DNA of 64,000 nt, taken from NCBI RefSeq assembly GCF_000192475.1, contig NZ_AEYW01000018.1, positions 124,001 to 188,000 on the forward strand. Direction: 5' to 3'. Source of the DNA: Ruegeria conchae. GTDB taxonomy: Bacteria; Pseudomonadota; Alphaproteobacteria; Rhodobacterales; Rhodobacteraceae. Every line of letters begins with the position of its first letter. Position 1 is the stretch's first letter. The translations under genes were made by a program, and so were the position numbers. This document shows, one piece after another, positions 14,436 through 47,780 of the stretch. The notes under the pieces are model-generated. The model was not told where the DNA came from. It saw only the letters and a program-made list of their open reading frames with translations, and did not search any database.

Positions 14436-14530
14436 CGTTTTTACCTTCGCTTTACTGAGGCCGATCAGAACTGCAGGGCGATATCTGATGGCGTCAAATC
14501 TATCCAGAAAGAAAACTGTTGCAAGCTCAA

Positions 14531-14566: not shown

Positions 14567-14581
14567 TGGGAGGAAAATGCA

Positions 14582-15811: not shown

Positions 15812-15820
15812 GCCTGACAT

Positions 15821-15852: not shown

Positions 15853-15869
15853 CCTTAACGGGGTTACCC

Positions 15870-21425: not shown

Positions 21426-21549
21426 TTTTCTGAACCTCCGCGTCTATGCTTCGGATCCATGGAATCACAGGCATTTCCCGTGACTTGCCGAAGGCGAAAA
21501 ATGAAAGGCTCGGTTCTTGAGCTGGAGGGACGGACATGACGGAGGCGCA

Positions 21550-25113: not shown

Positions 25114-25199
25114 GTTTTCCTAGCCCGATGTGAATTGTTCCGAATTCAATGGGTTGGAGGAATCATTTGAACCGCTAGACTGCTTGCGAGGTGACCGGA

Positions 25200-29951: not shown

Positions 29952-30147
29952 GGGGATCCGGATCCGCAGAAGCGCGGGGACCGCAGGAGACGCCGCACAG
30001 AGGGGCGGATCAAGTGCGGCGTTGGGAATGCGGCGAACCAGCGCGGGGCCCACCGAGCCGAGATTATCCACTCGGCCGAACTTGCGAGAATTACCTCGCA
30101 ACGGAGCCCGAGCGGCGGACCTGACGGAAAGGCGCTTCGGCTCATCA
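29952..30147 (+). repeat. 196-bp hairpin-rich non-coding repeat, copy 2
   Basis: Same orientation and length as copy 1 at 24918-25113. The two central hairpins are perfectly kept (GCCGAG 30057-30062 with CTCGGC 30071-30076, and TGCGAG 30083-30088 with CTCGCA 30095-30100). The third, outer stem is weaker than in copy 1. Together the copies bracket exactly the PLD-helicase and PIN gene pair, about 4.8 kb. Confidence 0.8.
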
Positions 30148-30160: not shown

Positions 30161-30718
30161 CTACGCTGTCGGGTCTCGAAGCAACGAATGGTGATCATCA
30201 TATCCGTGCTGCGAAAGTGCCTCGAGAGCCTCTATGCGACCTTTGCGACTGTGATCGCCGTCGACCACATGGTTGATCGCCTGCAGGCGCCTAAGGTGGT
30301 CTTCGTACAAGGCGTGGTGATGGCTGCCAGCGAGCACCAGCGCTAGATACCAATCGAATGGCTCAAGTTCAGGTTCGGTAGCGCTCGCAAAATAGGTTGT
30401 CGCAGTGAGCGTTGCTCCGGTTGAAGTGCAGGTCACGCGGAAACTATCATCACGATCGTAGCCGTAGCCGGCGCCTTCAGCGCGATCGAGGTTGCGCAAT
30501 TCGGACCGCTCAATCTCGAAAAGTACGCCTGGGGTGACAACCTCCTGAAACTCAGACTTAATCAGTGTCGCCTTACCAGAGCCATCCTTGCTCGGTTTGC
30601 TGAATTCTAGTCCAAAGCTGTGAGCATGCGCCGTGCCGATCACGCGGGCCGTGCTGCATCGTGCGTTCAGACGCGCCGGCAGCATGTTCGATCCGTAGGC
30701 GAAATAGGTAAAACTCAT
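30161..30718 (-). CDS. gamma-glutamylcyclotransferase-like protein
   Basis: 185 residues. Tyr-Phe-Ala-Tyr-Gly-Ser-Asn-Met at the N-terminus is the substrate-binding loop of the GGCT/AIG2 fold. The glutamate in Asp-Arg-Ala-Glu-Gly-Ala-Gly-Tyr is the likely catalytic residue. Family enzymes release 5-oxoproline from gamma-glutamyl compounds or cleave gamma-glutamyl-amine bonds. It is the last of the minus-strand defence row, 63 bp after the PLD gene, so it may be read through from it. Its role in this setting is unknown. Confidence 0.8.
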   Translation of the reverse strand: MSFTYFAYGSNMLPARLNARCSTARVIGTAHAHSFGLEFSKPSKDGSGKATLIKSEFQEVVTPGVLFEIERSELRNLDRAEGAGYGYDRDDSFRVTCTSTGATLTATTYFASATEPELEPFDWYLALVLAGSHHHALYEDHLRRLQAINHVVDGDHSRKGRIEALEALSQHGYDDHHSLLRDPTA

Positions 30719-30781
30719 CGACCGTCTCCAATCTAGATATTCTGAAGACCAATTGCCTTGGCCCTTGGCCGCCTATGCGAG

Positions 30782-33247
30782 CTACAAAATCTCTCGTTCA
30801 GCTGAATAGATTTTCCCGCAAATTGTTCTGTGTCCGCGCATCAATACTTCTGGGTCGACACAGAGCCGTTCGGCATATTGGGCGCTTAGACCCTCCATGA
30901 CCTGCGTGAACGAGGGAGCCAGCAGCTCCTCCTCGGAGAGATGCGTCCGACGGTACGTTTGTTCCAGAAGAGGGGCGATGTGGCGGGCGATCTTTTGGCG
31001 CTCAGCACCTGACATTGGGGCCGCGAGACAGGCCTGTAAACACCAAAGACACGTAGCCCAGCATTCGATCAGGTCGGCTGGAAATTGATCATGATCTGTA
31101 TCGAGTTTTAAACTGTAGACTGCAGGTGACCGGCCACCGAATATCTTGAAGAGCAAGCGCCCAATCACAAGGGGCCAGCTATTGGGATCCGCCTCGACGG
31201 GGAGCACCTGCAGCGAAGTCCTACCTTCTTGTTTGTCCTTCTCTTTGTCTGTGCCTTTCCATCCTGCAGCGCAGATGATCATCAGCAGCGCACGCAGACG
31301 CAGGAAGTCACGCGGCGACAGTTGGTTTCGTTCCTGTTTCAGATCGATCCGTTTTGAAAAGTTGTTCGCTGCAGAAACAAGTTGATCCTTCGTCGCCTTA
31401 CGCTGTTTGGCGCGGCGGCGACGCTCTTCTTCGTCGGGCTCGGGTCGTGACTCCGGCTTGGGCTTGAGCTCAAAGTCCTCGCCCGCCGCCATGGCGGCCT
31501 CTGCGTCTCCGGTTTCGTCGCCTAGGTCAAAAGCTGCTTTGAGCGTTTCTTCGTCTTCCTCTTCTGCGGCCGCCAGTAGAACACTCAATCCAACAATGCG
31601 GTTCAGAAATCCACGAACGATCGAAACATCGCTTCCACCCAAGCTGTTGTGCAGAACAGCACCGGATTGATGTGGTCGGCGACCAGAAATGAATTCTTCA
31701 TAGTTCAGCTTAAGATGGCTATTGCTGGCGCCATCGTCCGCCGGTTTTTGAGCCTTTGGGATAGAGACGCCTTCGCCACTTGCCTCTGTATCGGTATCCT
31801 CGATCTTTTCCAAGACATCGAGAACTTCGAGCAAGGCAAGGCTTGCTTCAGTTTCACCGTCGAGCTGCGCGAGCACGTTTTCGGTTTTGCGCGAATGCGT
31901 CTCTCGGATGGATGCCTGCAAGACATCGATGTGAGTGATAATAGCCGGTGCATAACCCTCGGATTCGAAGAGTCCAGCGAAGGCCGGAATGTCTTCTGTG
32001 GCATCAACGTGGTAGCGCAGCTTTCCAGACCCGTTGTCTTGGAGCCTCGAAGGTGATGCATCGATTACTGCGCCCGACGTATTGAGGAGTTCGATCTCGC
32101 GGTTCTCAGGATCGCTGATATGCGCAGCCGGGCGCCAGCTCAGCGTGTCCCCATGAAGCGAGAACAAGCCGGTGTGGCGCTGGGAGAGCCCATCGAGTTC
32201 GAGATCATCCTCGTAGTGCAACTCAGGCAAGTCTGCAGGCTGGATGCGTTTTTCATCCTTAAGGATTCTCTCAAGCCCAAGAGCTGTAGCGGTGCCTCCA
32301 GTCGGAAATCGACGGTACAGGCTCGCCTCTTCATTGTGACCCGCCATGCTTCCTGTTCCAAGAGCTGCAAGCGTACAATTTGCACTCCCGATCAATAAGT
32401 GATCAGCACTGTCCGTTTCAGCAATTAGGGCTTTGGCATGAATGAACCGCCCGCTCTCGAAGCCGTCGCGGCGATAGAGTTTTAGGTTTGGGAGTTTGTC
32501 TGCAGCATCCCTTGGAAACAGCTCGGTTTCCGGGTCGATGAGCACGGCAATCTCTTTGGGCGCCAAACTGTCCGCCAAATAAGAGAGCGCAGTGAGTTGC
32601 TCATCCCAGTACGGACTGACGACGATCAACCGATTGACCGGCTCGTCGATCAAGGCTGTGTAGCGAGGACCAATGCCCGAATTAGGTCTCGCCAGTAGCA
32701 ACGCAGCCTCTGTACCATCGGCCAAGGTGACCAATCCCTCGGCTGGAGTTGCGCTCCGCAACCATGCTGATCGGTTCAGCATCCATTCTTGCTGCATTGG
32801 AAGCATTGGGTCGGAGTGATCCATGAAATCGCAAAGATATTCCCAAGCTTGGGCGATCAACGCCTGCTCGCCATCTTGTTCAGCCCCGCAACTCAAAAGC
32901 GCCACCAGTTCCAAGTTTCCGGCAAGTCCGGCCGCAGTCAGGTTTGCGGAACCGATAATGAGGCGGCCGCCCTTGCGACCCACCTGCAAGAAGAGCTTCG
33001 GGTGGAAAAGCCTTTGTGTGGTTGCTCCACCGGCCGTGTAGAGCTTCCCAGCTTGCCGCGGCAACAATGACGCACCACCAAGGGCGTGCGTAAGCATTCG
33101 TCCATCCGCAATGACCATGTTGTTGCGGCACCCGCCCCCCCGGACACGCGGTAGAACGATATTCTCATACGCATCGAAATCGATGCCGAAAGTCGTAGCG
33201 ATGCTGCTGTGATATCCCTTGTCGGCAAAACGCTCGTAAAGCCTCAT
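30782..33247 (-). CDS. phospholipase D-like protein with two HKD motifs
   Basis: 821 residues. Two PLD half-sites are visible: His-Pro-Lys (82-84) with Gly-Ser-Ala-Asn-Leu-Thr (99-104), and His-Ala-Lys (270-272) with Gly-Ser-Ala-Asn-Cys-Thr (287-292). They could form one complete active site in a single chain. The C-terminal 500 residues are not recognised; they include a basic Arg/Lys-rich segment of Arg-Arg-Arg-Ala-Lys-Gln-Arg type that may bind nucleic acid. The ATG overlaps the stop of the 529-residue gene as ATGA, so the two are coupled. It is probably a nuclease effector, with a partner supplied by the upstream gene. Confidence 0.75.
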   Translation of the reverse strand: MRLYERFADKGYHSSIATTFGIDFDAYENIVLPRVRGGGCRNNMVIADGRMLTHALGGASLLPRQAGKLYTAGGATTQRLFHPKLFLQVGRKGGRLIIGSANLTAAGLAGNLELVALLSCGAEQDGEQALIAQAWEYLCDFMDHSDPMLPMQQEWMLNRSAWLRSATPAEGLVTLADGTEAALLLARPNSGIGPRYTALIDEPVNRLIVVSPYWDEQLTALSYLADSLAPKEIAVLIDPETELFPRDAADKLPNLKLYRRDGFESGRFIHAKALIAETDSADHLLIGSANCTLAALGTGSMAGHNEEASLYRRFPTGGTATALGLERILKDEKRIQPADLPELHYEDDLELDGLSQRHTGLFSLHGDTLSWRPAAHISDPENREIELLNTSGAVIDASPSRLQDNGSGKLRYHVDATEDIPAFAGLFESEGYAPAIITHIDVLQASIRETHSRKTENVLAQLDGETEASLALLEVLDVLEKIEDTDTEASGEGVSIPKAQKPADDGASNSHLKLNYEEFISGRRPHQSGAVLHNSLGGSDVSIVRGFLNRIVGLSVLLAAAEEEDEETLKAAFDLGDETGDAEAAMAAGEDFELKPKPESRPEPDEEERRRRAKQRKATKDQLVSAANNFSKRIDLKQERNQLSPRDFLRLRALLMIICAAGWKGTDKEKDKQEGRTSLQVLPVEADPNSWPLVIGRLLFKIFGGRSPAVYSLKLDTDHDQFPADLIECWATCLWCLQACLAAPMSGAERQKIARHIAPLLEQTYRRTHLSEEELLAPSFTQVMEGLSAQYAERLCVDPEVLMRGHRTICGKIYSAEREIL

Positions 33248-34833
33248 GTCTGCGCAGCCTCCTGGCCTTTGGAGGTGAGGCCTTCAACGGTGAGCAGACC
33301 CACGTCTTTAAGGAACGTGATAGCAGGCCCCAATCGAGGGTTGGTAAAAACGGGTCCGTCTTTTTCCCTGAGGCGGAGTTTGCCGTCGTCAGTTTCAATG
33401 AGAAACGTGTAGTCACCCTGGTGACGCAGTTTGCGCAGCGCCACCCACAAATGGCGCCGGATCACCCGCTCTTCGAGCACCCGCTCAATCGTTGTTCGGA
33501 AGGGCGCGTCTAGATGGCGATCGAGAAAGCGCGTTTCGCTCAATAGAGATCGAAATGCATCGGGGTTGAAGCCGCCAAGCGGCTCCTTCAGGTCTGCACC
33601 AGTCGCCTCAATCAGGCGATGCAAGATCGATAGCAAACGCACGGCCTTCGCAGCCACGCTCGGTTCGCAGACACGAGCATCGTCACGACCCGCTCGGATG
33701 ATCTCGTTGGCCAAAGATATCTCGGAGTCAGGATCGTCTTCATCGAATGCATTCTGCGCAGGCTCGGTGACGGCGGTGAAAGCTCTCCAGCTCGACGGCT
33801 CGACTTCCAACTCAGCGATTATCGCATCAGCACAAAGGCCGATCAGGCGCGCCATACTGAGCCCGACTGGGTGCTCTCCCAGCACGTCGAGAGTGAACTT
33901 CAACAGGGTTTCGTTGGCGATGTGACAAAGATCGTTAGCTTGGTACACCCACCAACGCGCACGCTGTGCCTCCAATGCCGGATCGTCGAGGTCGAGAGCA
34001 TTGCCAGCTTGATCTTGTCCAGCATAGAGGACCCAGCGGATCTCTTCCGCACGGGGCTCCTTCCCCAACAAATCCGCAACCTTCAAGATCAACTGGATGC
34101 TCAATTTTCGCGACAAGGCGCCCGCGGTTGGCGCATTTGAGCGGGTCAAGAGAATGTCTTCGTAGAGGTCTTGCTCAGTGCTTCCTGAGGTGATCCGCGA
34201 CGGCAAAAGGGGTGCCAGTTTATCGAGCTCTTCTCGCGAAACTTCGCCCTGCTCAATAACTGAAAAGTACGCATCCGCCGTAGAGCCGAGTGTATCCTCG
34301 AAAGCCTGTGCCAGTCCCTCTCCAAGCGGTTTGCTCGGGAGGGGAATGTCGTGCTCATCTGACCGATCGAAGACCCCGATCTCGAACAACTGGCTGCGAT
34401 AGGCAGCACCAAAGGCACCCCAAGCCTGCTTGAGATAGTAGTTCTCGCTGCCTGGTTCGGCCGCCATAGCGAATTCGATGGTTTCGCCAATTTGATTTTC
34501 AAGCGATTTGGCTGCCCAGTCGGTTCCCGCGACGCCGGACTCGCCGCCATGGTGGCTGGCCACTAGCGCGTATAGAGCCTCGGCGCGACGGACATACCGC
34601 TTCCAATTGTTTGGATCTGTATCCCCAACCTGCTTTGCATAGCGATGAGCGAGCCAAGCATAGAGCCCATAGTAGCGCATTCGCAGGGTCACGTTTGAGA
34701 TGCCGGGCAGGAATGTTTGGTAAAGATTGACGCTGCTATTCTGCATTCCGAGAGGATCGAGACCGTTTTTCTTCCGGTACTCGGTCCACTCTGGAAAGGC
34801 GGTTTTTGCCTCTTCGCTCACTACTTCGTCCAT
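33244..34833 (-). CDS. uncharacterised 529-residue protein coupled to a PLD protein (DUF6361-like?)
   Basis: Predicted soluble and largely helical, with a conserved-looking N-terminal stretch Thr-Leu-Arg-Met-Arg-Tyr-Tyr-Gly-Leu-Tyr-Ala-Trp-Leu. I associate this with proteins that accompany PLD nucleases in defence loci; DUF6361 is the name I recall, unverified. No nuclease, helicase or ATP-binding motif is visible. It is 31 nt downstream of the RecB-like helicase gene and coupled by ATGA to the PLD gene. A sensor, adaptor or regulator for the nuclease is a reasonable inference. Confidence 0.6.
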   Translation of the reverse strand: MDEVVSEEAKTAFPEWTEYRKKNGLDPLGMQNSSVNLYQTFLPGISNVTLRMRYYGLYAWLAHRYAKQVGDTDPNNWKRYVRRAEALYALVASHHGGESGVAGTDWAAKSLENQIGETIEFAMAAEPGSENYYLKQAWGAFGAAYRSQLFEIGVFDRSDEHDIPLPSKPLGEGLAQAFEDTLGSTADAYFSVIEQGEVSREELDKLAPLLPSRITSGSTEQDLYEDILLTRSNAPTAGALSRKLSIQLILKVADLLGKEPRAEEIRWVLYAGQDQAGNALDLDDPALEAQRARWWVYQANDLCHIANETLLKFTLDVLGEHPVGLSMARLIGLCADAIIAELEVEPSSWRAFTAVTEPAQNAFDEDDPDSEISLANEIIRAGRDDARVCEPSVAAKAVRLLSILHRLIEATGADLKEPLGGFNPDAFRSLLSETRFLDRHLDAPFRTTIERVLEERVIRRHLWVALRKLRHQGDYTFLIETDDGKLRLREKDGPVFTNPRLGPAITFLKDVGLLTVEGLTSKGQEAAQT

Positions 34834-34864
34834 TCAAATCCCGTTTCAATCCTGTCACAGTAAA

Positions 34865-37800
34865 TCATATTGATTTTAGAGGGTTAGCCAATTCTAGATA
34901 TCCACAGAAAGCATTTGCCAACTGCATCTGCCGCGGAGTCCGACACTCCGCCTCGAAAACCTTTGGCGACGCGACCAAGACCGCAACGCACTTGGCCCTC
35001 GAGATTGCGACGTTGAAGCGGTTCGCACTGTACAGGAACTCCATGCCCCGTGGCGCGTCTGCATGGCTCGATGTCGCCATCGAGTAAATCGCTATAGGCG
35101 CCTCCTGGCCCTGGAATTTGTCGACAGTCCCGACGCGAGCACCCGGCAACCGCTGTTGAATTTCAAAGACCTGTGCATTGTAGGGTGCGATGATCAGGAT
35201 GTCCTCGAGCGTTAGAGGCTTCTCCTGACCCTCCCGATCAACCCATGTCGGTTGACCTGACAAGACCTCTTCAACAAGTCCGGCAACGGCATCGGCCTCC
35301 TCGATCGACGAGCTCTGGTTGCCCGAGTGGTCGACGGGCAAATTCCGAAGACCTGCTCCGGTCAGGGACCCTGCACCGCGGATTTCCTGCAGCTCGCATC
35401 CTTCTACAGAGTGCAGCTTGTCGTCATAGAAAAGATCAGAATTGAACTGGCAGATATCGGGATGCAGGCGCCAGGTTTTCTCGAGGAAGAGGCCTTGATC
35501 TTCAGCGATCGTATGCGAGTCTCCAAGAATATGCTCGAGCGCGGAAACCCCCGTCCCGTCCGGATGCGTGCCCTGCGTGGGCTGGTCCAGCTGTTGCGGA
35601 TCCCCAAGCAAGATCAGGGCCTTCGCGCTCTGAGCAACTGCCAGGACGTTCGCTAGCGACATCTGCGCGGCTTCGTCGATCACGAGCACATCGAGCAACT
35701 CATGTGCGTCAGCGCGAGACCAAAGAAAGTGCGTCGCACCGGCAACCTGCGCTGATCCTGAGCCCAGCGCGGCATAAACACCGGCATTGTCGGTCACGAA
35801 CTTCAACCGGTCCTGATCAGGTTCCATCTCGCCGGACTTCGGTTTCTGAACACAGCAGAGATCGACCTTCATCTCCGGGACGGCTTCGACGACCTTGTCG
35901 AGCAGGTTGCGGATCACCTTGTGACTGTTGGCCGTGATCCCGACCTTCTTTCCACGCTTGACGAGTTCGCAGATCATGCGCGCGCCCGTGTACGACTTAC
36001 CAGTTCCCGGAGGGCCCTGAATCGGGAAAACGCCTTCACCAAGCTCGCGAGCTACGCGAAGCGAAGCGTCCAGGGTCGTTTCTCCCGGCTGTCGGATCGG
36101 TCCATCGCCAAGTTGCGGTTGGAGACGCAGCAAGAGTGCCCGGGCGCTCTGATATGGCCCTTCTCCTTCGATGCCATTATCAGCGACATACTCCCCAAGC
36201 CGCATCAGGCTGTCGGCCTGTTCCTTCGTATTGAACATCTGATGCGCGAAGACGCCCTCGGGATGGATGTCGGCCGTCTTCCCCATCTTCTTGATGTCGA
36301 CTGTCCGATCATCCGCAGAAACCGCGATCACGCTGCCGATTTTGTCGCCGCCATTCATCCGCAATGCTTCGTCGCCACGAAGATCCGTGTCCTGCTGCGG
36401 GAATGCATAACGGTGCACGGGCGTCCGAGCGCCCGGTGGCGACACGTCGCCAGCAAACACGAGCTGTGACAACGCGGCGCGCTCGTCGATGAGTTCTTCT
36501 GGCGTGAGCGCGGAAAGCCGGAAGTATTCCCACCAGGCTGCCTTGTCCTCACGGCGATGCCAGTCGAGGATATTCGCGAGGATCCAACGGGCGTGCTGTT
36601 CTTCGCTCCGCTCTTCGATATCCGCGGGCAGGTCGGCCGTGAGGCGCTCGATCAGAGCCTGCACTGCTTCCTGACGTTCTGTCAGCGCCTCGCTTGGCTC
36701 CTGATCGGACGGCAAGGGACGCGGAACAAGCGTGCCGGCATCGACAAGCTCCTGCCGGCGACGTTCAAGCCATTCGCGCAGAGCAATGGTCGAAGTGCAA
36801 TCCTCGTAATTGTAAGACCGCACGGTCGCGCGCACCTCGCCGTCGATGGCATCGATATCGCCTAGCTCGAGTCCGGCTTGCAGACGCGCAAGCGCGACGT
36901 TGGCATCTGGCAGACTGATGTCCCGCTCAAAGCCGTAGATCGGCTCCAACTTCTTGATCGAGTAGCTTTCGACGCCGGCGCGCAGTCCATTGCGCACTGC
37001 GCTGTAGAGATCGACCAGCAGATTGCTGCGCAGGAAATCGTCGATCTCATCTTCGCGGGTCGCATACCGGCCCATAAGCCGTTTCAGCGCCCCGGGCTCG
37101 TAAGGTGCGTAGTGGTAGATGTGAAGATCCGGATACTGTTCCCTGCGCGCATTCACGAAGTCCACGAAGCACTCGAAGATGGCCTTCTCGCCTTCCCGGT
37201 CGAACGCCCAATCTGCCGTATCGGCCCAGGCGCCATTTTCATCGCGATAGATGTAACCGAAGAGATACTCAAGGCCGTGCTCACCAACAAACGCATCGCT
37301 TTCGATGTCGAAGAAGATGTCTCCGTCAGACGGTTCAGGCAGCAAGCACAAGCCGATATCTTCGACGATCGGCAGGAGCTCGTACCGGACCTCTCCGGCC
37401 TCGCGGGACTCCATCTGAATGCGGGCCTGCTCACGGGCCTTCTCGTAGGAGAGCGGCGACCCCTTCTTCGGCTTCCAGGGCATGGGCGTCGGCATTTCCG
37501 CGAGCGCTGCCGCGGTCGTGATCCCGTTGTCCTGAAGCTCGGCAGTCTGGTTCTTGCTGATCCCGGCGACCAGGCAGAGATGGTCATCTGCGCGGCGCCG
37601 TGCGTCACACTGGGTCCGCCATCTGCAGATGTCGCAGTGTTCCTTTGGCTCAGGATACTGACCTCCGAGCGATCCGTCGGAAGTCGCCGCTTCAGCGGCG
37701 GCCTTAGCCTTCCGGAAATACGCGGCGTAGTCCGCATATCGAAACTCTTGCGGTTCGAAGTCGGACCAAGGCGCCACGACGTACACATATTCAGGCGCGA

Positions 37801-38281
37801 TCCCCTGCACCTGTTCCAACAGGTCGGCGTAGAGACAAAGCTGAAGCACCGAGCCAGCCTTGGTCTCGCGGGCAAGTTTCGTGTCGATGATCTCGTAGGA
37901 CCATGATCCGAGACTGCTGGGTTTCTCGACCCGCCGCAGGATGTCGGCCCGCCCGACCCACCTTTGATGTGCAAGCGCCGCCTGGACGATAATCTGAACG
38001 CCGGACGCCATCGCAGCGCGGGTCTCGTTAACGGCCGCTGGGGTGATGTCGCCCCCGTCGATCCGAACAGATGTCAGTCCCTGAGCCTCAAGATGCTCGA
38101 TGAACGCCTTTTCATGCTGGTCGCCCCGCTCGCGCAAGATCTCGAGAAGCGGGTCCCAGTGCTTCGGTTTCGCAAGCGCCCCTTCGGCGACCTGAAGATC
38201 CAGCTCCGTCAGATGGGCGCAGTTCAGATGGCCGACGAGGTCGGATGCGCTCAGGACGATCTTATCGATGTGCTTTTTCAT
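34865..38281 (-). CDS. TM0106-type RecB-like nuclease fused to RNase H-like domain and SF1 helicase
   Basis: 1138 residues in three parts. The N-terminal RecB/Cas4-type nuclease has Gly-Arg-Ala-Asp (110-113) and Ile-Ile-Asp-Thr-Lys (131-135). Its four cysteines (Cys21, Cys216, Cys219, Cys225) should hold a 4Fe-4S cluster as in AddB and Cas4. A ribonuclease-H-like domain has Phe-Phe-Asp-Ile-Glu-Ser-Asp (323-329). The C-terminal Upf1/Dna2-like helicase has Gly-Pro-Pro-Gly-Thr-Gly-Lys-Ser (756-763), Asp-Glu-Ala-Ala and a late Val-Ala-Ile-Ser-Arg-Ala. It could unwind and degrade DNA ends or RNA-DNA hybrids. The ATG overlaps the stop of the DnaQ-like gene as ATGA. Confidence 0.85.
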   Translation of the reverse strand: MKKHIDKIVLSASDLVGHLNCAHLTELDLQVAEGALAKPKHWDPLLEILRERGDQHEKAFIEHLEAQGLTSVRIDGGDITPAAVNETRAAMASGVQIIVQAALAHQRWVGRADILRRVEKPSSLGSWSYEIIDTKLARETKAGSVLQLCLYADLLEQVQGIAPEYVYVVAPWSDFEPQEFRYADYAAYFRKAKAAAEAATSDGSLGGQYPEPKEHCDICRWRTQCDARRRADDHLCLVAGISKNQTAELQDNGITTAAALAEMPTPMPWKPKKGSPLSYEKAREQARIQMESREAGEVRYELLPIVEDIGLCLLPEPSDGDIFFDIESDAFVGEHGLEYLFGYIYRDENGAWADTADWAFDREGEKAIFECFVDFVNARREQYPDLHIYHYAPYEPGALKRLMGRYATREDEIDDFLRSNLLVDLYSAVRNGLRAGVESYSIKKLEPIYGFERDISLPDANVALARLQAGLELGDIDAIDGEVRATVRSYNYEDCTSTIALREWLERRRQELVDAGTLVPRPLPSDQEPSEALTERQEAVQALIERLTADLPADIEERSEEQHARWILANILDWHRREDKAAWWEYFRLSALTPEELIDERAALSQLVFAGDVSPPGARTPVHRYAFPQQDTDLRGDEALRMNGGDKIGSVIAVSADDRTVDIKKMGKTADIHPEGVFAHQMFNTKEQADSLMRLGEYVADNGIEGEGPYQSARALLLRLQPQLGDGPIRQPGETTLDASLRVARELGEGVFPIQGPPGTGKSYTGARMICELVKRGKKVGITANSHKVIRNLLDKVVEAVPEMKVDLCCVQKPKSGEMEPDQDRLKFVTDNAGVYAALGSGSAQVAGATHFLWSRADAHELLDVLVIDEAAQMSLANVLAVAQSAKALILLGDPQQLDQPTQGTHPDGTGVSALEHILGDSHTIAEDQGLFLEKTWRLHPDICQFNSDLFYDDKLHSVEGCELQEIRGAGSLTGAGLRNLPVDHSGNQSSSIEEADAVAGLVEEVLSGQPTWVDREGQEKPLTLEDILIIAPYNAQVFEIQQRLPGARVGTVDKFQGQEAPIAIYSMATSSHADAPRGMEFLYSANRFNVAISRAKCVAVLVASPKVFEAECRTPRQMQLANAFCGYLELANPLKSI

Positions 38282-39207
38282 TGCTGCGCCTCCCAGAGAC
38301 GCTCCGAGAAGCGGTTTAGCGCTGTGACCTTATGCGTTGGCACATTGGCGTCACGACCGTAGATTTCGGCCCGGAGCCAATCGATCTCCGCCTTGGGGTC
38401 AGATGTGATCGTCCACCAGACCCTACCGAGTGGAAGTTCTGCCGGCCGCCAGCGATAACCGCGCTCCTTCAGCTTCAGGCGTTCATCGTAGGGAGCATCA
38501 ACCGCTCTAATAAGGTATTCTTCGCGCAGAGCCGCATCGCGCACGGCTGACATGATCCGCTGGTTTGATTGAGGGAGCTTCTGTGCAAGCAGCGCAAGGC
38601 AAGCTTCACAGTCGGCCAATGCCCGATGACCTTCGTAGAACCAGCCAAACTGCATTCCAAGATAATCGAGCTTACCAGCAGAGAAACCCTCGCGCAGCCA
38701 ATCGACACTCGTGAGTGTGCAGCCCCAAGGCTTCCCGGCAAAGCAGGGCCAGTGTTTCTCGACCATCACCCGATCGAAGTTGGCGTTGTGCGCGATGATT
38801 AGGTCGGCATCTGCCACCAGCGCCTCGACAACGGACCCGTCGATCGCCCGTCCCGCAACCGTTTCAGCAGTCAGACCGGTGACCAGACTGGCTTCGTCCG
38901 AGATCGGAACACTAGGCTCACGCAGTCCATCGAAGGCCCGGCCGTGGGCGATCTCAAGGACACGACCAGTGTCGAGCTCGTAGGTGAACGGAAGCATGGC
39001 GAGCTGGATGACCTCGTCGCCCTCGAGCGAAAGGCCGGTGGTCTCGACATCTAGAACGAGGGCATGCTTAACGGCACCCCCGCGAGGATTGTTCAGGCGG
39101 CGTGGAAGGGCCAACCGACGAAGGAGGCGCCAGTCGTCCACGTGGGTGTGCGCTGCGGTCTGAATGACCTGATCAGTGCGGATCGCAAAGAGACTGTGAT
39201 CGTTCAT
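38278..39207 (-). CDS. DnaQ-like 3'-5' exonuclease (DEDDh)
   Basis: 309 residues. All DEDDh residues are seen: Asp53 and Glu55 in Asp-Val-Glu-Thr-Thr-Gly, Asp145 in His-Asn-Ala-Asn-Phe-Asp, and His194/Asp199 in His-Arg-Ala-Leu-Ala-Asp. After the nuclease (to about 210), a C-terminal extension with Gly-Tyr-Arg-Trp-Arg-Pro and Val-Trp-Trp-Thr resembles the short module often fused to such exonucleases. It is coupled to the RecB-helicase gene by a 4-nt overlap, which suggests a joint DNA-degrading machine rather than replication proofreading. Confidence 0.85.
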   Translation of the reverse strand: MNDHSLFAIRTDQVIQTAAHTHVDDWRLLRRLALPRRLNNPRGGAVKHALVLDVETTGLSLEGDEVIQLAMLPFTYELDTGRVLEIAHGRAFDGLREPSVPISDEASLVTGLTAETVAGRAIDGSVVEALVADADLIIAHNANFDRVMVEKHWPCFAGKPWGCTLTSVDWLREGFSAGKLDYLGMQFGWFYEGHRALADCEACLALLAQKLPQSNQRIMSAVRDAALREEYLIRAVDAPYDERLKLKERGYRWRPAELPLGRVWWTITSDPKAEIDWLRAEIYGRDANVPTHKVTALNRFSERLWEAQQ

Positions 39208-39304
39208 CGCGCCACCTCTATAAGTGTTTTCACCAAGGATTGATCAGCTGCTCGCCATCTCACAACCGACGCTTTCCCTTTCAATTCGCCAGCAAAGGCT
39301 TCTC

Positions 39305-41019
39305 TCAAACGCCTTCCAGCACATCCGAACAAATTGCGTCCCGCCCACAAAGTGCCAAGATTGATTTGGCGCGCGAGATCCCGACATACAGCGTGCCACG
39401 GCGTTCATTTCTTGGTAGTTCGTCCAACCCCCACAAAACAAGGACCTCACCTTCTAAACCCTTGAACCTGGCGACCGTTTCTACGGTAACTCCTGGTTTG
39501 CTTGCATTTTCGATGCCCTTCCAGCAGAGGCCTGATGGCAGGGACACGCGATGTAAGGCGCTCTCGTAGTCTTTGCGCTTCATCCTATCCGCAATCAAAA
39601 CGACGATTGACGAACTTGGGATCTTTTCGACGGTCAAAAGCTTCGAGACAAATTCTTGGATCTTCTTCGCCTGCTTGGGCAAATCGGGTGCCGCCAAGAT
39701 CTCGATATTGTCGCCATCCAAATCCGGCGGGTCGATCAATGGACCTTTGTAATACTGGTAAGCCGTTTCGTGAATTTTTTTGTATTCCGGCAATTGAAGG
39801 ACAGCGTGATGGGCGAGGCGTCGGCGGGAAAGGTGCTCGCTCTCGTGTAAACGTCTTGATTCTCATCGTGAAAAACATAAAGTGGTGAGGTATTGCCGTC
39901 CCGCAGCAGCATTTCGATTGGAAGCCAATACTCTTCTCCAAAATCTTGGCCTTCATCGACGACGATGGCGTCGTAGCGAACATCGACGATATCGAGCGCA
40001 TACGCTAGTGCGATCGGAAAATAGTGATCCCAAAGATCCAATCCAGGGAAGGACGCCTTGGCCTCGGCGATCAGATCTCGACCACTCTCCCGACACGCTT
40101 CATCCACGATACGCTTGCAGAGCTTGTGAAAACCAAAGACATCAAGGTTTTCTTGGCCGCTACAGACGTCCTCCAAATGGCTTGCCAATGGGACGTTGTA
40201 GCAGGTCAGTAACGTTCTGAAGCCCTCGTCTGCAAGCCGCTTCGCTTTCTCGACTGCAAGAACCGTCTTCCCAGTTCCTGCGCCGCCGCTGATCGCGACT
40301 CGCCTTTGCCGGGAGAGCAGATCCAGTGTTTGAATCTGCCTATTGGTCAGGCGCAGTCGCTGGCTTTTTTCCAGCTCGATTTGAGCAGACAAGAGCGGCC
40401 GAGTTTGTACGACGCGAGCAAATATCCGCTGCATCAGCTGAATACCACCAGCACCCATCGGGTTGGTCCAGGAATTTGCGTCATCGCTGGACCAGTAGTT
40501 GAAAGCTTGCTCCAACCACGCACCGAGATTGGCAAGATCTGACCGGTCTCCAATGATCTCCGTTGGGGCATTGGGGCCCTTCAAAGCCCGTCCATCATCC
40601 ACGTCTGGAAAGAAGGCTGCGTGTCCCGTCGAAACTTTCTTGAGCCCTAAGCGCGCCCAGTCCCGATGTTCTCTTAGCTTGGACAAGACATTGAATTTTC
40701 CCGTCATGGATTGGCGAAATGGATCCTTGATCTTGTGCTCTCGACCATTTCGATCGATTGATGACCACTCGCCTGTTGTGTAGTCCGCTCGTATGCGTCC
40801 CCCTTTGACTTCCACGACCAAGAACCCGCGATCGGGATGACAAACTAGAAAATCTGCTTCGCCGTCTCGAGCACCACCCTCCGATCTCGAAATCCACCCC
40901 ACTGAATGGAACACATGATACTCGCCCTCGAGGGAGGTGCAGGCTTCGTAGAACTTGATTTCGGCGGAAGGGATATCTTCCCCGTAGTTACCTCGATAGT
41001 CTGGATAAAGTCTCACCAC
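39305..41019 (-). pseudogene. NERD-nuclease/UvrD-like helicase, frameshifted at an A7 run
   Basis: Start at GTG 41019, 8 nt after a GGAGG that lies in the end of the upstream gene. NERD nuclease residues are Asp56, Glu70 and Lys72 (Glu-Ala-Asp, then Val-Glu-Val-Lys-Gly-Gly). Helicase Walker A is Gly-Gly-Ala-Gly-Thr-Gly-Lys-Thr (245-252), followed by Val-Asp-Glu-Gly-Gln-Asp. At seven A (T on the plus strand, 39775-39781) the first frame runs to a stop at 39736. One extra A would join it to the second frame (39305-39793), which carries the last motifs, including Gly-Ile-Ser-Arg-Ala-Lys. About 570 residues if restored. Mutation, sequencing error or slippage-based control cannot be separated here. 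Confidence 0.75.
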
Positions 41020-41023
41020 GGCA

Positions 41024-44000
41024 TCAATCCTCCAGCAATTCCATAGTGGTCGCATTGAAGGTTATTGATTTCGTCCCCCAATCTTTGAATTCGATCTTGA
41101 GCTGGGTCATGACGCCGATTTTCTTGATTTCGAGGATTGTTCCAATACCAAAGCCTTCTACTTGGATACGTCGGCCAGCTACGAATTGTGCTTTGTAGTC
41201 CCCTCCCTTTTCTTCCGCGACCTCTCGCCAAACCCGATCGAACCAAAATTCATCTGCTTTGAAAAATGGATTTTTGATCGCATTGATCTTTCTCTTCTTT
41301 GGCTCCAAAGCGTGTTCGACGACGTAGAGCCAAGCTTCATCTGGATGATCCTGGGCGAATGAAATCTGCGTTCTTGAGAGCTTCACCCCTCTGTCGGTCC
41401 ATTCACCGTCCAAACCTTTCACTTCGATGAGACGCTTCTCGTCAGCATTTTTCGATCGGGACATCACATCGTAGCCCGGATTGAAATGCGGCTGACGTTC
41501 GGGCAGAAAATCTCGGTTTAGCTCGTAATCCATCACTGCTTTCATGGCCGCCTCGTCGATTGCCGAAATCCGCTCACGACTAGGTCCAGATCCTTTCCCG
41601 GCTTCTCCTAGCTCGTCCTTCTCGGGTTTGACGTAAGACCTCATCCATTCGGTTCTTGCCTTCCTAGTCGTTTTTGCGGGGTCCTTGTCTATGGATGACG
41701 ATCCAGAGCTTGAGCCTGGAGTTTCGCTCGTTGCAGATCCAGACGACCCTTCACTTCGCTTGTGTCCCGGCTCTTGGGTTCCTGAGGATTCAATACCAGT
41801 TGTCTTCTTCTTGGCTTCCGCTGCGATATCCGCGTCGGATGCGGCTTTCTCTGCGCCTATGTCTGGATCGTCGATCACCTCGTCGTCTTCAACTTCCCAA
41901 TCGGCTGGATCTTGTTCAGATCCCGTTCCAAAACCCAGCTCCCCGATTTCGTCTTCAGGCAGCACTTCGGTTGGAAATTCTTCTGTCTCTGGCGCGCCGT
42001 AGCCGGCTTGCCTGAGTTCGTACGCGGCATCTTCGCGAGAATTTGCACTCAGAACCAACTTGGCAATCAGAGCAAACTGGCCGATTGACGCTTTGCTTTC
42101 CCCTGCCAGTAGCGTCGAGAATATCGCTCGAAAGGCCGGAATCCAGTAGTTGCCAGGCAAGTCTAGAAGTACATACACCCTCGCCTCGTTGGAATCGAAG
42201 ACCACCTCGTCATTTCGCGGCGGCGACGCGAATGGAACATCATCCAAATCGAAGATAGAACGAGCGGTCAGAGCATCCGTCCGAACCAGTTCGATGTTTC
42301 GAAGAGTCTTTTCGAGATGGATCCGTGTTTCCCTGCGTAGATCGACACATAGCCATCCAAGTAGATCACTTCGTTCTCGCACCAACTGCGTCGCATCTTC
42401 GTCGTCGATCACGTCTCCCAAATCAACTATTTCCAGCCGCGTCACCAGAGATAGCGGTCGTATCTTGAACCAATCGATGAGCTCTACCGTTTCAGCAGAC
42501 GAACGCACCAAACGTGCGTCGAGATCTCCTCCGAATGGCTCTGCCAGCCAATCACTATCCTGTATGGCGACTTCGTCGACGAAAGCGAGTGTTCCGGCGA
42601 GGGTGAATAGAAACGGATGTTCCCGAAGTCGTTCCAGGTGCAGAGATGTGCCCGCAGGATTGTCGCGTAGCTTTTCCGAAAGGGTTCTGGTGCAAACATC
42701 ATGAACCAGCGAGATCTCACCGGGCAGAAGCGATGCGTCGCCACCAAACTCGTCGGCGATGTCGATCAGTACGTCCACGTATGTTTCGGTGGAGGGCTCT
42801 TCAGTTACACCAAGAAAGTCGAATAGCTCCTTGTATTCATGCATCCACTCTGGTGCCTTGAAACAGTACCGCGCCAGATGCGGTTTGCTCCAAAAGAAAC
42901 GATCGGTTCCGATGAACTCCTTCCTCTTGGGGGCGTAGATGCATCTCTCGTTCTTCAATCGCTCGATGAAGAACTGGTCGCCTTCCTTCTTCAGACGCTC
43001 ACTCAAGATCTGATAACTGTGCTTGCTCGGCTCCAGCCCACGTTCGATACAGTCTTCGAGATGGTCGACGATGATCGACGTGTCCGGTTCTGCCGGCATT
43101 TGAAGAAATTCCAGAAATTCCCTATTCAGCCGACGCCCCATACCAGTTACACCCAGCACTGCCACCTGTGATGAAAACCCTCCCGCCCGGAAAGGCTGAT
43201 ACAATTCATGTGGGGAATACCAATACTCGGTATCCAGCTTGCCTTCTTTCTCCGCGGGAAGCCAATCCGTATGCCGCATTCTTGATATTTCGTCCTCGAA
43301 CTGCTCTTCGTTCTTAGCCAAAATCTCGTCTTGATAGACTTCGAGTATGAAACCAAAGATTTTGGAAATAGCGCCTCGTGTTTTGTCTGAGGGCGGATCT
43401 TCCACGACCACTTCGATCCTATCCAAGGCGTGCGTCAGCGAAGGCCTGGATCGCATGCCAAGAGAACGAAAAAAGCCCAGATAGAGCTCCTTCCTCGACT
43501 CGCCGAAGATGCTTTCGTCGACCCACAAGGCATCATCGTCTCCTAGGATTTCGGCGAGCGCGTCGGTCTTCGCGTAGCAATCTCTGGCAGCTCTCAGGAG
43601 GCCATCCTTGGTTTTTACCAAATGCAGAGCAGCTAAGGTCTCCCTCGTGCCTTCTTTATCGAGCAAGTCCTTCTTTGATACGAGTACATCAAGCAGGGCG
43701 ACGTAATGCTCATTCGAGAGGTCTTCGTCCAGAATGTCTGCCAAATGCTCTTCGATGTAGGCCTGGAGCGTCAACGTTTCGACTTCCAAGACCTCTTTGA
43801 GGAACTTTCGCGCCCTATCCCCGAAGTAATCGAGATCCAAAGTATCGAAGCGACCAATCGGATCGTCGAACCCTCCGGGTAAGACGGCCAGTCGTGGCGT
43901 CAAAAAACGCCCATGACCTGCCAGAAACGGCGTCGAAGCCACATTTGACGAGTAATCATGGTCCTCATCGCGGGGATACTCGACTAGAAAATCATAGAAC

Positions 44001-45829
44001 GCACGTACCCGTTTTTTATCGCGAGACAAGAATGAAACGGCAGTCTCTTCATCTTGTACCCGTTCTGCCAGTTCACCCAGGACATCCTCGAAGACGAACT
44101 CAGGAGCGAGAGAGAAAAGCTGTGGGAATTGTACGAAATCTTCCGAAGCCATCGGCAACTCAGGAAAGAAATTGCGGACATCTTGTACTTTCGCCTGGGC
44201 CGGCAGCCTTTTCAGTTCGGACAGCTTGGCCAATCGACCATCGAAACTTGGGGCAATCCGCAATTTACACAAGTCTGCTTTTTGCCGTCGCAGTTCACTC
44301 TCTGGCCCGCTAATCACCCGTAAGTTCTGCCTCGGTTTTTCCGACAGTGTATTTTCCAAAAAATATTCCAAGATACGCCAAATGGGTGAAACGGCATCAT
44401 GCAGACTGGACCAATCCGGTTCGGAACCTGGGTCAAATTCGGCCTGATCCCAGGACTTCAGAGCGTCTACGAGTCTCTTGAGAGTCAAATCAGACACACC
44501 CACCGCTCGAATGACAGACTTGAAGGCCTGCAAAGACGAGTTGATTGTCGGTATTCCTATTTTTTCCAATGACCTTTCTTGATCAGCCCCGAATTGCGCT
44601 GGCAAAAGCCTACAATCGGAACGGCCAACCCATTCGTCGGCACTCGTCAAATAAATACTGGCGTCGACCGCTGCTTCAGAAATCTCCGCCCAGAACACCC
44701 CGAAGTGGTCATCGTTTCGATTTTGGTACGCTTCGTCTAAGAGCTTCCAAAGCCCCTTGGGACCGAGAACATCCTTCAAGCTTTCCAAACGCCCAGCGAC
44801 CTCCTGGGCGGCATACCCCAAAAGCATCTCGTTCCAATATCGTTCGTGCTGCTCGCCCGTGAGAACGAGAGCTTTTCGTGTTTGCTCCGGAAAAAAGTCA
44901 GCGTTGATGTGGCAGGGTACCGGCGAATCCTGTTCGGTGGGCAGGTACGCAAAAAGTCGTCCCGTACGTTCCTCTTGATCGTCGAGACGAAAGGCGATTT
45001 GAGCGGTCGTCTGTCGGTCTAGCCTCTCTATCGCCACGAATCTTTCTTTCAGCGGGCGCGCTGCCTCTTCGGCATCCAGATGAATGACGTACCACTTTTC
45101 GCGTCTATTCTTTCTTTCGAAAAAAAGTTCTAGGTGGTTTTCATCTTCGACGGACTTCTGAACGAAACTCACTCTTTTTCCGTTCAGTAAGACCTCTATC
45201 GAACCCAAGTTTTTAAGGAATAGAAGGCAATCCTCGGCGGTGGTCACCAGATCGTCTTTAAGTGCCTTTAGGCTTTCTAACGAAAAGGCCGAAGCGCTGA
45301 GAGCCTCCCGAATTGGGCTTCGATCATCCAGCGCCCAAGTAATCTGAATCTCCGATCCATCGACCGGGTCGATCGTTCGGATCTGGTTCTTTTCAGACAG
45401 AGGGTCGAGCGTTAGTTCAACGTCCCCAGAACGAATGATGGGTTGATCCGTCAATTGGTAAACCGAGACAAAACCGATACCGAACCTACCGATCAATCCG
45501 GGTTGGTTGTATTTGTTTCCGCTTCCTACCTTGCTGATCGCGTGGAAGTCACAAGCCTTTCGCTTCCTAAGCTGCGGACTTCCATTCGTCGTCCAAAGGC
45601 ATTCATCCGAGTTCAGTCCACAGCTGAGGAACTCTGCGTCGTTCCACACGACCAACGCCTCGTCAGTGATGTCGAACCGAATGCTCTTTGCACCCGCATC
45701 ATCGGCATTCTGGATGATTTCGCGCGCCATGGAGTCGAATCCCTGTAGACCCGTCAGAATCTGCCGAATGTTGCTAATCAGTGGTGCAGAGTAAGATAGC
45801 TCTCGCACCCTATTCACAAGGTTGGACAC
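41024..45829 (-). CDS. sacsin-like GHKL ATPase with DUF3883 nuclease-like domain
   Basis: 1601 residues. The Hsp90/sacsin-type ATPase is at the N-terminus, with Glu-Ile-Ile-Gln-Asn-Ala-Asp-Asp-Ala-Gly (about 37-46) and Gly-Arg-Phe-Gly-Ile-Gly-Phe (about 117-123). A long helical middle of about 1000 residues and a low-complexity Ser/Gly/acidic linker follow. The DUF3883 domain has His-Phe-Asn-Pro-Gly-Tyr-Asp (1448-1454) and Ile-Glu-Val-Lys-Gly (1468-1472), a PD-(D/E)XK-like pattern. The last 60 residues, with Phe-Gly-Ile-Gly-Thr-Ile, resemble the small beta-barrel tail of UvrD/PcrA. Its stop lies just before the helicase start, so they form a pair. It may be a large sensor-nuclease for defence. 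Confidence 0.8.
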   Translation of the reverse strand: MSNLVNRVRELSYSAPLISNIRQILTGLQGFDSMAREIIQNADDAGAKSIRFDITDEALVVWNDAEFLSCGLNSDECLWTTNGSPQLRKRKACDFHAISKVGSGNKYNQPGLIGRFGIGFVSVYQLTDQPIIRSGDVELTLDPLSEKNQIRTIDPVDGSEIQITWALDDRSPIREALSASAFSLESLKALKDDLVTTAEDCLLFLKNLGSIEVLLNGKRVSFVQKSVEDENHLELFFERKNRREKWYVIHLDAEEAARPLKERFVAIERLDRQTTAQIAFRLDDQEERTGRLFAYLPTEQDSPVPCHINADFFPEQTRKALVLTGEQHERYWNEMLLGYAAQEVAGRLESLKDVLGPKGLWKLLDEAYQNRNDDHFGVFWAEISEAAVDASIYLTSADEWVGRSDCRLLPAQFGADQERSLEKIGIPTINSSLQAFKSVIRAVGVSDLTLKRLVDALKSWDQAEFDPGSEPDWSSLHDAVSPIWRILEYFLENTLSEKPRQNLRVISGPESELRRQKADLCKLRIAPSFDGRLAKLSELKRLPAQAKVQDVRNFFPELPMASEDFVQFPQLFSLAPEFVFEDVLGELAERVQDEETAVSFLSRDKKRVRAFYDFLVEYPRDEDHDYSSNVASTPFLAGHGRFLTPRLAVLPGGFDDPIGRFDTLDLDYFGDRARKFLKEVLEVETLTLQAYIEEHLADILDEDLSNEHYVALLDVLVSKKDLLDKEGTRETLAALHLVKTKDGLLRAARDCYAKTDALAEILGDDDALWVDESIFGESRKELYLGFFRSLGMRSRPSLTHALDRIEVVVEDPPSDKTRGAISKIFGFILEVYQDEILAKNEEQFEDEISRMRHTDWLPAEKEGKLDTEYWYSPHELYQPFRAGGFSSQVAVLGVTGMGRRLNREFLEFLQMPAEPDTSIIVDHLEDCIERGLEPSKHSYQILSERLKKEGDQFFIERLKNERCIYAPKRKEFIGTDRFFWSKPHLARYCFKAPEWMHEYKELFDFLGVTEEPSTETYVDVLIDIADEFGGDASLLPGEISLVHDVCTRTLSEKLRDNPAGTSLHLERLREHPFLFTLAGTLAFVDEVAIQDSDWLAEPFGGDLDARLVRSSAETVELIDWFKIRPLSLVTRLEIVDLGDVIDDEDATQLVRERSDLLGWLCVDLRRETRIHLEKTLRNIELVRTDALTARSIFDLDDVPFASPPRNDEVVFDSNEARVYVLLDLPGNYWIPAFRAIFSTLLAGESKASIGQFALIAKLVLSANSREDAAYELRQAGYGAPETEEFPTEVLPEDEIGELGFGTGSEQDPADWEVEDDEVIDDPDIGAEKAASDADIAAEAKKKTTGIESSGTQEPGHKRSEGSSGSATSETPGSSSGSSSIDKDPAKTTRKARTEWMRSYVKPEKDELGEAGKGSGPSRERISAIDEAAMKAVMDYELNRDFLPERQPHFNPGYDVMSRSKNADEKRLIEVKGLDGEWTDRGVKLSRTQISFAQDHPDEAWLYVVEHALEPKKRKINAIKNPFFKADEFWFDRVWREVAEEKGGDYKAQFVAGRRIQVEGFGIGTILEIKKIGVMTQLKIEFKDWGTKSITFNATTMELLED

Positions 45830-46276: not shown

Positions 46277-47392
46277 ATGGGAGGCCCCGAGCACGTGGCG
46301 AACATTGCCTGCATCGATCTGTTCTGTGGAGCCGGCGGCCTTACTCGGGGGCTTCAGAACGTCGGTGTGAACGTCGTCGCTGGGGTCGATGTCGACCAGG
46401 CATGCAAACACGCTTTCGAAGTCAACAACAATGCAAAGTTTCTCCTCGAAGACGTCAGCGAGTTGGCGCCTGAGAAGCTGAACGATCATTTTGGAGACGC
46501 ATCAATACGGGTGCTCGCAGGTTGCGCCCCGTGTCAGCCGTTCTCGACATATTCGCAGCGTTACGAAACCGTCGGCACGCCGCGTTGGGGCCTGATGTAT
46601 CATTTCGCGCGCCTCGTCAAAAACACACGACCCGAATTCGTGACCATGGAAAACGTGCCCACGGTGATCAAGCACGACGTCTACAAGGACTTCGTTAGAA
46701 CGCTCGTGAATCTCGGCTATCGCGTCTCGAGTGGCGTCGTGGATTGCACGAAATACGGGCTCCCGCAGACCCGGCGCAGAACCGTGCTCTTGGCCTCGTT
46801 GGACCGAACGATCGAACTGATCGCCCCACCCGAAGACGCAATACACACCGTACGAGACGCGATCGGCACCATGCCAGCGCTCAAACAGGGTCAATCATCC
46901 GAGGATGATCCGCTTCACGCGGCCGCTCGTCTTTCGGATCTAAACCTCGAACGTATCCGCGCGTCCCGACCTGGAGGCACCTGGCGGGATTGGCCGCAAG
47001 AGCTCGTCGCCGAATGCCATCGCAAAGACAGCGGCCGCACTTATCCCGGCGTCTACGGCCGGATGGTCTGGGATGCACCGTCGCCGACAATGACGACGCA
47101 GTTTTTCGGCTTCGGCAACGGTCGCTTCGGCCATCCAGAGCAAGACCGGGCCATTACGTTGCGCGAAGGCGCCATTTTACAGGGATTTCCACTCGATTAT
47201 TCTTTCGTTCCTGAGGGATCCCCTATTCATTTCAAGACATTGGGGCGAATGATCGGAAATGCCGTTCCGGTCACCCTCGGAGAAATCATTGGACAGAGTA
47301 TCTTGGCAAGTCTCGACGAGACCGAAAAACCGACGAACAGAGAAGACGATCATGAAACCAAGCGGGAGTGTGGTAAAACCCTCGTCGCCTGA
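46277..47392 (+). CDS. dcm: DNA (cytosine-5) methyltransferase
   Basis: 371 residues with the ordered C5-methylase motifs: Asp-Leu-Phe-Cys-Gly-Ala-Gly-Gly (14-21, AdoMet site), Pro-Cys-Gln-Pro-Phe-Ser (85-90, catalytic Cys86), Glu-Asn-Val-Pro (125-128), Gln-Thr-Arg-Arg-Arg (164-168) and Gly-Asn-Ala-Val-Pro near the end. The target-recognition region between the last two is short. Its 3' end overlaps vsr by 41 nt. It probably protects host DNA within the linked restriction or DISARM-like module; no classical restriction endonuclease gene is adjacent. The start is uncertain because the ATG at 46277 has only a weak ribosome-binding site. Confidence 0.9.
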   Translation: MGGPEHVANIACIDLFCGAGGLTRGLQNVGVNVVAGVDVDQACKHAFEVNNNAKFLLEDVSELAPEKLNDHFGDASIRVLAGCAPCQPFSTYSQRYETVGTPRWGLMYHFARLVKNTRPEFVTMENVPTVIKHDVYKDFVRTLVNLGYRVSSGVVDCTKYGLPQTRRRTVLLASLDRTIELIAPPEDAIHTVRDAIGTMPALKQGQSSEDDPLHAAARLSDLNLERIRASRPGGTWRDWPQELVAECHRKDSGRTYPGVYGRMVWDAPSPTMTTQFFGFGNGRFGHPEQDRAITLREGAILQGFPLDYSFVPEGSPIHFKTLGRMIGNAVPVTLGEIIGQSILASLDETEKPTNREDDHETKRECGKTLVA

Positions 47393-47780
47393 GGCTTCGG
47401 CTCGACTGGCGCGCGTCAGACAGAAAGACACGGCGGCGGAGCTCCGATTGAGACGCACGCCGCACGCACGCGGGCTGCGATACCGTCTTCATATCCCACT
47501 TCTCGAAAAACCACGTCGCGTGGCGGACATCGTCTTCAGGCGCAGGAAGCTAGCGATCTTCGTCGATGGCTGCTTTTGGCATGGTTGCCCCCAACACGGC
47601 ACCAGTTCCAAGAGCAATGCCGATTTCTGGCGAGACAAAATCGAGACGAACAAGCGGCGCGACCTCGATACGAACCGACGCCTCACCGAAGCCGGCTGGC
47701 GTGTCTTACGGGTCTGGGAGCACGAAGACGCCGAAGACGCGGCCGATCGGATAATGAAAGCATTGGAGTTCGACGCATGA
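47352..47780 (+). CDS. vsr: very short patch repair endonuclease
   Basis: 142 residues from the ATG at 47352, inside the 3' end of dcm. Family motifs are Lys-Asp-Thr-Ala-Ala-Glu-Leu-Arg-Leu-Arg-Arg, Arg-Val-Ala-Asp-Ile-Val-Phe with the metal-binding Asp, and Val-Asp-Gly-Cys-Phe-Trp-His-Gly-Cys with the zinc/catalytic residues. It nicks next to T:G mismatches produced by deamination of 5-methylcytosine, so it is a natural companion of the cytosine methylase. Its stop overlaps the helicase ATG as ATGA. Confidence 0.9.
   Translation: MKPSGSVVKPSSPEASARLARVRQKDTAAELRLRRTPHARGLRYRLHIPLLEKPRRVADIVFRRRKLAIFVDGCFWHGCPQHGTSSKSNADFWRDKIETNKRRDLDTNRRLTEAGWRVLRVWEHEDAEDAADRIMKALEFDA

Follow-up and report, generated by a model that had tools for sequence, protein, structure and literature searches.

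Does a compact, one-strand row of nuclease, helicase and ATPase genes make up a single machine, or can it be a stack of separate systems? The question is raised by a locus of Ruegeria conchae, within a 64,000-nucleotide stretch of contig NZ_AEYW01000018.1 (assembly GCF_000192475.1, positions 124,001 to 188,000; hereafter the window). An earlier note, made from the letters of this DNA, had described seven genes in a row, had left open whether they were one machine or three coupled pairs, had likened part of the row to the anti-phage system Azaca, and had held that pairs found independently in many genomes would mark the row as an accumulation of separate systems. The row stands as described in part: its seven genes are all found on the minus strand between 30161 and 45829, at the coordinates noted earlier, but the helicase gene is broken. 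The reading preferred here, with a probability of roughly 0.65, comes from sequence comparison and takes the row as a defence-island stretch of separate stacked units, among which two adjoining genes, A and B, would form a helicase-less, Azaca-related nuclease defence module. The row is read as an accumulation because A-B and other units occur without the rest of it.

Genes A and B as a linked pair

Gene A (33244..34833, minus strand) encodes a mostly helical protein of 529 amino acids, and gene B (30782..33247, minus strand) a phospholipase D (PLD) protein of 821 amino acids with a double HKD motif. The stop of A and the start of B overlap at 33244..33247 on the same strand. A scan of contigs with A gave 16 loci, a number raised to 22 by the search of relatives and by plasmids, and A adjoined B in 21 of these 22. 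A followed by B was found at 32 further loci, in Alpha- and Betaproteobacteria and in Bacteroidota (Myroides, Prevotella). The loci counted are L005-L024, L054-L056, L059-L061, L080-L084 and L091, the A gene of L020 being in pieces; omitted were L003 (the same place as L056), L043 and L044 (the same as L054 and L055), L042 and L053 (with a gene pair identical to that of L008), L058 and L089 (one contig, with A and B scores identical to those of L006), and the fragments L004/L057, L062, L063, L090 and L092. The pair is uncommon, with A detected in four of 385 genomes of the class and three of 249 genomes of the phylum, the organism's own genome included each time. It is found on plasmids and in viral-collection contigs, and a search of the phage collection with B gave no match.

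The two genes are closely tied to each other. They overlap by 4 nt at 26 of 30 junctions and by 8-23 nt at four (the junctions of L020 and L054 were left out, the start in L054 being ambiguous). Alignments of 22 A rows and 22 B rows were made from the window and 21 of the 32 loci, close duplicates excluded; across these rows, pairwise distances in A and in B were correlated with r=0.972, and none of 5000 permutations gave a value as high. Among plasmid records, B matched 13 and A matched 16. Twelve were common to both, with matches at neighbouring coordinates; the A gene of the thirteenth B record was detected with a hidden Markov model, and in four A-only records the match was limited to about 70 residues. 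The remaining row genes, described below, do not accompany the pair. Homologues of the TmtA, DEDDh and cyclotransferase genes were absent by tblastn from the 32 loci (stretches of 10-32 kb), and weak, partial helicase matches were seen at four of the 32 (43 bits to the NERD helicase at L009; 47-59 bits to the RecB/helicase gene at L013, L017 and L024). Independent occurrence, which the earlier note had tied to accumulation, is therefore what A-B displays at 32 further loci without the rest of the row. The pair travels among bacteria independently of the row and, on these comparisons, is its sole unit whose conservation is shown.

A search of Pfam with protein A gave no match, in keeping with its earlier description as a 529-residue protein of no known kind. 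It carries a conserved N-terminal block (DPLGMQ...LPGISNVTLRMRYYG). In the monomer model of A, confidence is low for parts of its best-conserved blocks at either terminus, so an interface with B is conceivable. The two motifs read earlier in B correspond to two HxK...SxN half-sites in one chain (H82/K84 and H270/K272, residues invariant), and its predicted model has a PLD fold of Tdp1/PLD3-like type. B is probably a DNA-cutting enzyme. In the preferred reading B would be a phosphodiesterase, acting as a nuclease, whose half-sites build one active centre, and A would be made in step with B, bind it, and supply either recognition of invading DNA or loading on it. Acting together, A and B would either cleave foreign DNA or, when triggered, bring about the death of the infected cell, in both cases without a motor of the type of ZacC, the helicase of Azaca. 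The TmtA-type ATPase (with the NERD helicase), the RecB/RNase H/helicase protein and the DEDDh exonuclease would be independent neighbours.

The same pair could also be viewed as toxin-antitoxin-like or as an abortive-infection pair, in which a toxic nuclease B is held by A and freed on infection. Overlapping genes, strict pairing and co-variation would suit such an arrangement, as would the presence of A-B on plasmids and in viral-collection contigs. B is, however, far bigger than usual toxins, and a homologue of A accompanies a helicase in an Azaca-like locus (see below), which would be a better fit to a recognition subunit. We consider this account unlikely.

The other units of the row

The gene at 41024..45829 (minus strand) encodes a TmtA-type (Tiamat) sacsin-like ATPase of 1601 amino acids with a NOV_C/DUF3883-type C-terminus. 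The earlier identification is borne out by the Pfam domains SACS and NOV_C, both above cut-off, and by PADLOC model PDLC03969, which matches residues 8-1597 with 1275 bits. A helicase gene (39305..41019, minus strand) starts with GTG 4 nt beyond the ATPase stop, the spacing first noted. Its product is of UvrD type and matches the PADLOC model RTasNERD-Hel. The gene is split over two frames and is not one open frame, a break that the earlier note had missed. At E<=1e-3 no Pfam NERD domain was found in the window helicase; its relatives carry the NERD annotation. The N-terminal part (39736-41055, 439 amino acids) and the C-terminal part (39305-39793, 162 amino acids) join at a seven-base homopolymer near 39775 and align to opposite ends of one PADLOC model. 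An intact relative, at L035, is encoded by a gene without a homopolymer of at least five bases. The frame break may belong to the organism or to the assembly.

TmtA is rare. Among the 385 genomes of the class only the organism's own gave a match at E<=1e-20; seven plasmid records matched, in two of which the match spanned at least 80% of the protein, and near these two full-length relatives there was no A, B, DEDDh or RecB/helicase gene. Viral contigs searched for TmtA and for the NERD helicase gave no match. In Sphingomonas naphthae a NERD-UvrD gene begins 2 nt after TmtA, an intact parallel of the arrangement in the window, and behind the TmtA gene of Microvirga there is no NERD-UvrD gene. 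In genome G176 (L052, 7454-8483) 46 residues from the N-terminus of TmtA (59% identical) run, with a change of frame, into the second half of a NERD helicase, convergent with a RecB/helicase gene; this remnant is a deletion fossil of the TmtA-NERD pair. Other NERD helicases of the same type have different partner genes. Because the pairing is intact in a single relative, survives as a fossil in one genome and is missing from one further relative, and because other NERD helicases have other partners, TmtA and the NERD helicase are held to be a likely, thinly supported pair. NERD helicases were also seen on an Azospirillum and a Rhizobium plasmid (L085, L086) in four-gene rows of a UvrD helicase, a helicase, a DUF1998 protein and the NERD helicase.

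Between the helicase gene and A lie two further nuclease genes. The first (38278..39207, minus strand, 309 amino acids), formerly labelled DnaQ, encodes a DEDDh 3'-5' exonuclease of the PRK09182 subfamily (294.3 bits against NCBIfam NF006615, cut-off 207), a common subfamily present in nine of 190 genomes and in 351 plasmid records. The second (34865..38281, minus strand, 1138 amino acids) encodes a TM0106-type RecB nuclease joined to RNase_H_2 and superfamily 1 helicase domains. It scores 248.5 bits against TIGR03491 (cut-off 97.45), and Pfam finds RNase_H_2 and an AAA_11/AAA_12 helicase, matching the earlier call of a RecB/RNase H/helicase protein. This gene is present in nine of the 385 class genomes, the organism's own included, and in 249 plasmid records at E<=1e-5, with a coverage of at least 80% of the protein in 59 of these. 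The DEDDh and RecB/helicase genes overlap by 4 nt, and the sequence there and at the A-B junction is ATGA, so that both overlaps reported earlier are present; the RecB/helicase gene and A are 31 nt apart. At 24 loci of RecB/helicase relatives (L036-L040, L045-L052 and L115-L125, several short or ended by a contig edge), DEDDh, A and B were found nearby in none. A coupled pair of DEDDh and RecB/helicase was rejected on this 0/24 count, in a one-sided test read from the RecB/helicase side. Among the three coupled pairs considered earlier, then, A-B is conserved and TmtA with the NERD helicase is plausible, whereas the third is backed by no other locus read. Three viral-collection contigs (L117-L119) hold just the C-terminal quarter of a RecB/helicase gene, at 89-90% identity, followed by a fragment shared with window positions 20861-21007.

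The last gene (30161..30718, minus strand) encodes the cyclotransferase-like protein of the earlier description, an AIG2/GGACT (gamma-glutamyl cyclotransferase-like) protein of 185 amino acids by Pfam. It had no match at the 32 other A-B loci and thus shows no sign of A-B membership; it is a singleton in the row.

These distributions bear on the idea of the entire row as a single multi-protein machine, in which TmtA would sense, the helicases and exonucleases would process DNA, and A-B would be the final nuclease. The common strand, the two ATGA overlaps and the short gaps speak for such a machine, and so does the position of RecB/helicase genes near the TmtA-NERD remnants of G176 and near an Azaca-like locus of Bradyrhizobium. 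The full set of genes, however, was found at none of the 32 A-B loci and none of the 24 RecB/helicase loci, the full-length TmtA relatives on plasmids lack A, B, DEDDh and RecB/helicase genes nearby, and the helicase gene is broken in the window. We hold a single machine to be very improbable. By homology the identities of the row genes are real, and their placement in one row demonstrates nothing beyond a shared location in a defence island; in such an island, unrelated systems can be stacked into a row on one strand, ATGA overlaps included.

Setting in a defence island

The company of A-B elsewhere is consistent with a role in defence. Among 20 neighbouring proteins scanned, 11 matched PADLOC models at E<=1e-10, at eight of 13 loci, against one of ten control proteins (the ten largest or nearly largest frames in a stretch of a same-genus genome), a contrast that is indicative only, the neighbours being hand-picked and mostly larger, and the controls smaller and from one genome. 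The matches were to SoFic, type IIG, Druantia, type I-D Cas10, Qat, type I restriction-modification (two loci) and DISARM. Annotated A-B plasmids add Zorya and type I restriction-modification as neighbours, and in Myroides the pair sits within a row of restriction-modification genes.

In the window the row is bordered by two divergent genes on the plus strand, for a cytosine methyltransferase with DrmMII as its best PADLOC match (46277..47392) and for a DrmD-type SNF2 helicase (47576..50317). The top PADLOC model for the latter is labelled DrmA, but its score as DrmD reaches 1200 bits as well. As the DrmD-like gene lacks its C-terminus and ends in an insertion sequence, the genes at 46277-50317 are taken as a DISARM-like remnant. 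No DrmB was found among the window proteins scanned with PADLOC, all of which are encoded beyond position 25190. The insertion sequence (50209..51026, minus strand), with an IS240-type DDE transposase (50262-50975), forms the right edge of the island; synteny with the same-genus genome G001 (94-96%) begins at 51014, at its outer end. A second copy at 7604-8421, in the same orientation and 87% identical over 819 positions, is without a long transposase frame. The 43 kb between the copies hold the row, the DISARM-like remnant and a recombinase-RepB-RepB trio (21517-24880).

Beside the trio, two direct copies of a repeat, each about 196 bp long (87%; 24918-25113 and 29952-30147), flank a gene for a PLD-motif protein of 1162 amino acids (25191-28679) and a PIN-domain gene (28983-29858); this segment is possibly a cassette carried as cargo by a mobile element. 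The viral-collection contig L123 has a similar trio at 13405-16237 (54-65% identity), with a relative of the RecB/helicase gene (36%) about 5 kb away, an arrangement suggestive of a shared mobile element.

Besides the hand-picking of the neighbours, several observations weigh against the row as an accumulation with A-B as a nuclease defence module. No fold or function was found for A, and nuclease action is what we infer for B, since lipid-acting PLDs fit its model as well as nucleases do. The ATGA overlap of the DEDDh and RecB/helicase genes and the 31-nt gap before A would permit co-transcription of the row. Relatives of the RecB/helicase gene lie by the TmtA-NERD fossil (convergent) and by the Bradyrhizobium Azaca-like locus, and some association beyond chance among the row genes is possible. 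The flanks at the A-B loci mostly extended to at most 10 kb per side, which leaves space for a distant third gene.

Comparison with known systems

The RecB/helicase protein is an ordinary member of the TM0106 family of RecB nuclease/helicases (TIGR03491), with no notable difference. The ATPase resembles Tiamat in that it matches a TmtA model along its full length, with 1275 bits; it differs in giving at most 221 bits with the remaining PADLOC TmtA models, and in the NERD-UvrD helicase gene that stands behind TmtA in the window and in S. naphthae. Tiamat itself has been described as a single-gene system.

For B, three known types of PLD protein can be compared. The PDC-M27B model of PDC-M27, a PADLOC candidate of PLD protein and helicase, matches 19 of the 22 B rows, but the window B scores 27 bits with it as against 62 for ZacB, and an M27C-type helicase is not part of A-B. 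Models of DrmC, the PLD protein of DISARM, match at most 17 of the 22 B rows, in the region of one half-site; they are short and cover the motif region only, whereas B has 821 amino acids and is paired with A instead of DrmB. The ZacB model of Azaca (ZacA-ZacB-ZacC) matches all 22 B rows, with a best E of 7e-20 and 61.7 bits for the window B.

The likeness to Azaca extends to gene order, A and B standing as an uncharacterized protein followed by a PLD protein. The ZacA model matches 14 of 22 A rows at E<=1e-3 (best E 1e-7); its match to the window A is weak, with 20.2 bits over the N-terminal 90 of 396 positions. The PADLOC models, proposed earlier as a check, thus recognize TmtA and ZacB, and ZacA weakly, and gave no ZacC match for the RecB/helicase gene of the window. 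By sequence A and B qualify as remote homologues of ZacA and ZacB, so the likeness to Azaca sensed earlier survives for these two genes, but not for the RecB/helicase gene, which neither travels with A-B nor matches ZacC. That gene was also considered as a ZacC substitute and rejected, no second case being found.

The difference from Azaca lies in the helicase, as A-B stands without an adjoining ZacC gene. Searched over 23 A-B genomes or records (L016 left out), the ZacC model gave no match in the organism's own genome and seven matches (E<=1e-5) in four of the 23, none of which is a ZacC gene beside A-B. The sole match near A-B is a 38-bit motif within drmD of L013, a DISARM gene that reaches 1420 bits against DrmD. 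A-B is accordingly related to Azaca, yet one defining feature of Azaca is missing. A-B might be Azaca with a helicase borrowed from elsewhere in the genome or from a neighbour (DrmD, ZorD, HsdR or the RecB/helicase protein); helicase genes of other systems are frequently near A-B, and the DrmD gene of L013 starts about 220 nt after B. The neighbouring helicases come from differing systems, however, and this, with the ZacC counts above, renders borrowing quite unlikely.

In the Bradyrhizobium genome of L013, where A-B lies beside DISARM, genes resembling A and B occur again about 18 kb away, at a second locus that also has a helicase. This helicase scores 90 bits with ZacC and 97 bits with DrmD, and because the scores are nearly equal the locus is called Azaca-like rather than proven Azaca. 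Profile comparison of the Azaca-like locus L100 (812-9611) with our rows gave E 2.5e-7 for A and 2.8e-11 for B; a relative of the RecB/helicase gene (36% to that of the window) adjoins this locus on the other strand. In genome G656 (L097, L101) an A-like gene adjoins a different PLD-like gene, which sheds no light on Azaca.

In the literature searched, mainly open-access and covering part of the mentions of Azaca, ZacA and ZacB, no description of A-B or of a helicase-less Azaca was found. Azaca and Tiamat are placed among largely uncharacterised systems (PMC12926258), a PLD-like domain is listed for Azaca (PMC10952713), and PLD nucleases of YprA-helicase systems are described in a paper where the word Azaca does not occur (PMC12458937). 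Tiamat and Azaca share one Pseudomonas hotspot, according to PMC12629846, a parallel to the company seen in the window.

Against these systems A-B can be given a place of its own, though tentatively, as a proposal to which we grant somewhat less than even odds. It would be a self-sufficient two-gene immune system of at least two phyla, composed of a Tdp1-like PLD nuclease and a helical sensor with no ATP-driven motor. If this is true, the A-B pair would be the core of Azaca, and Azaca that core with a helicase as an add-on.

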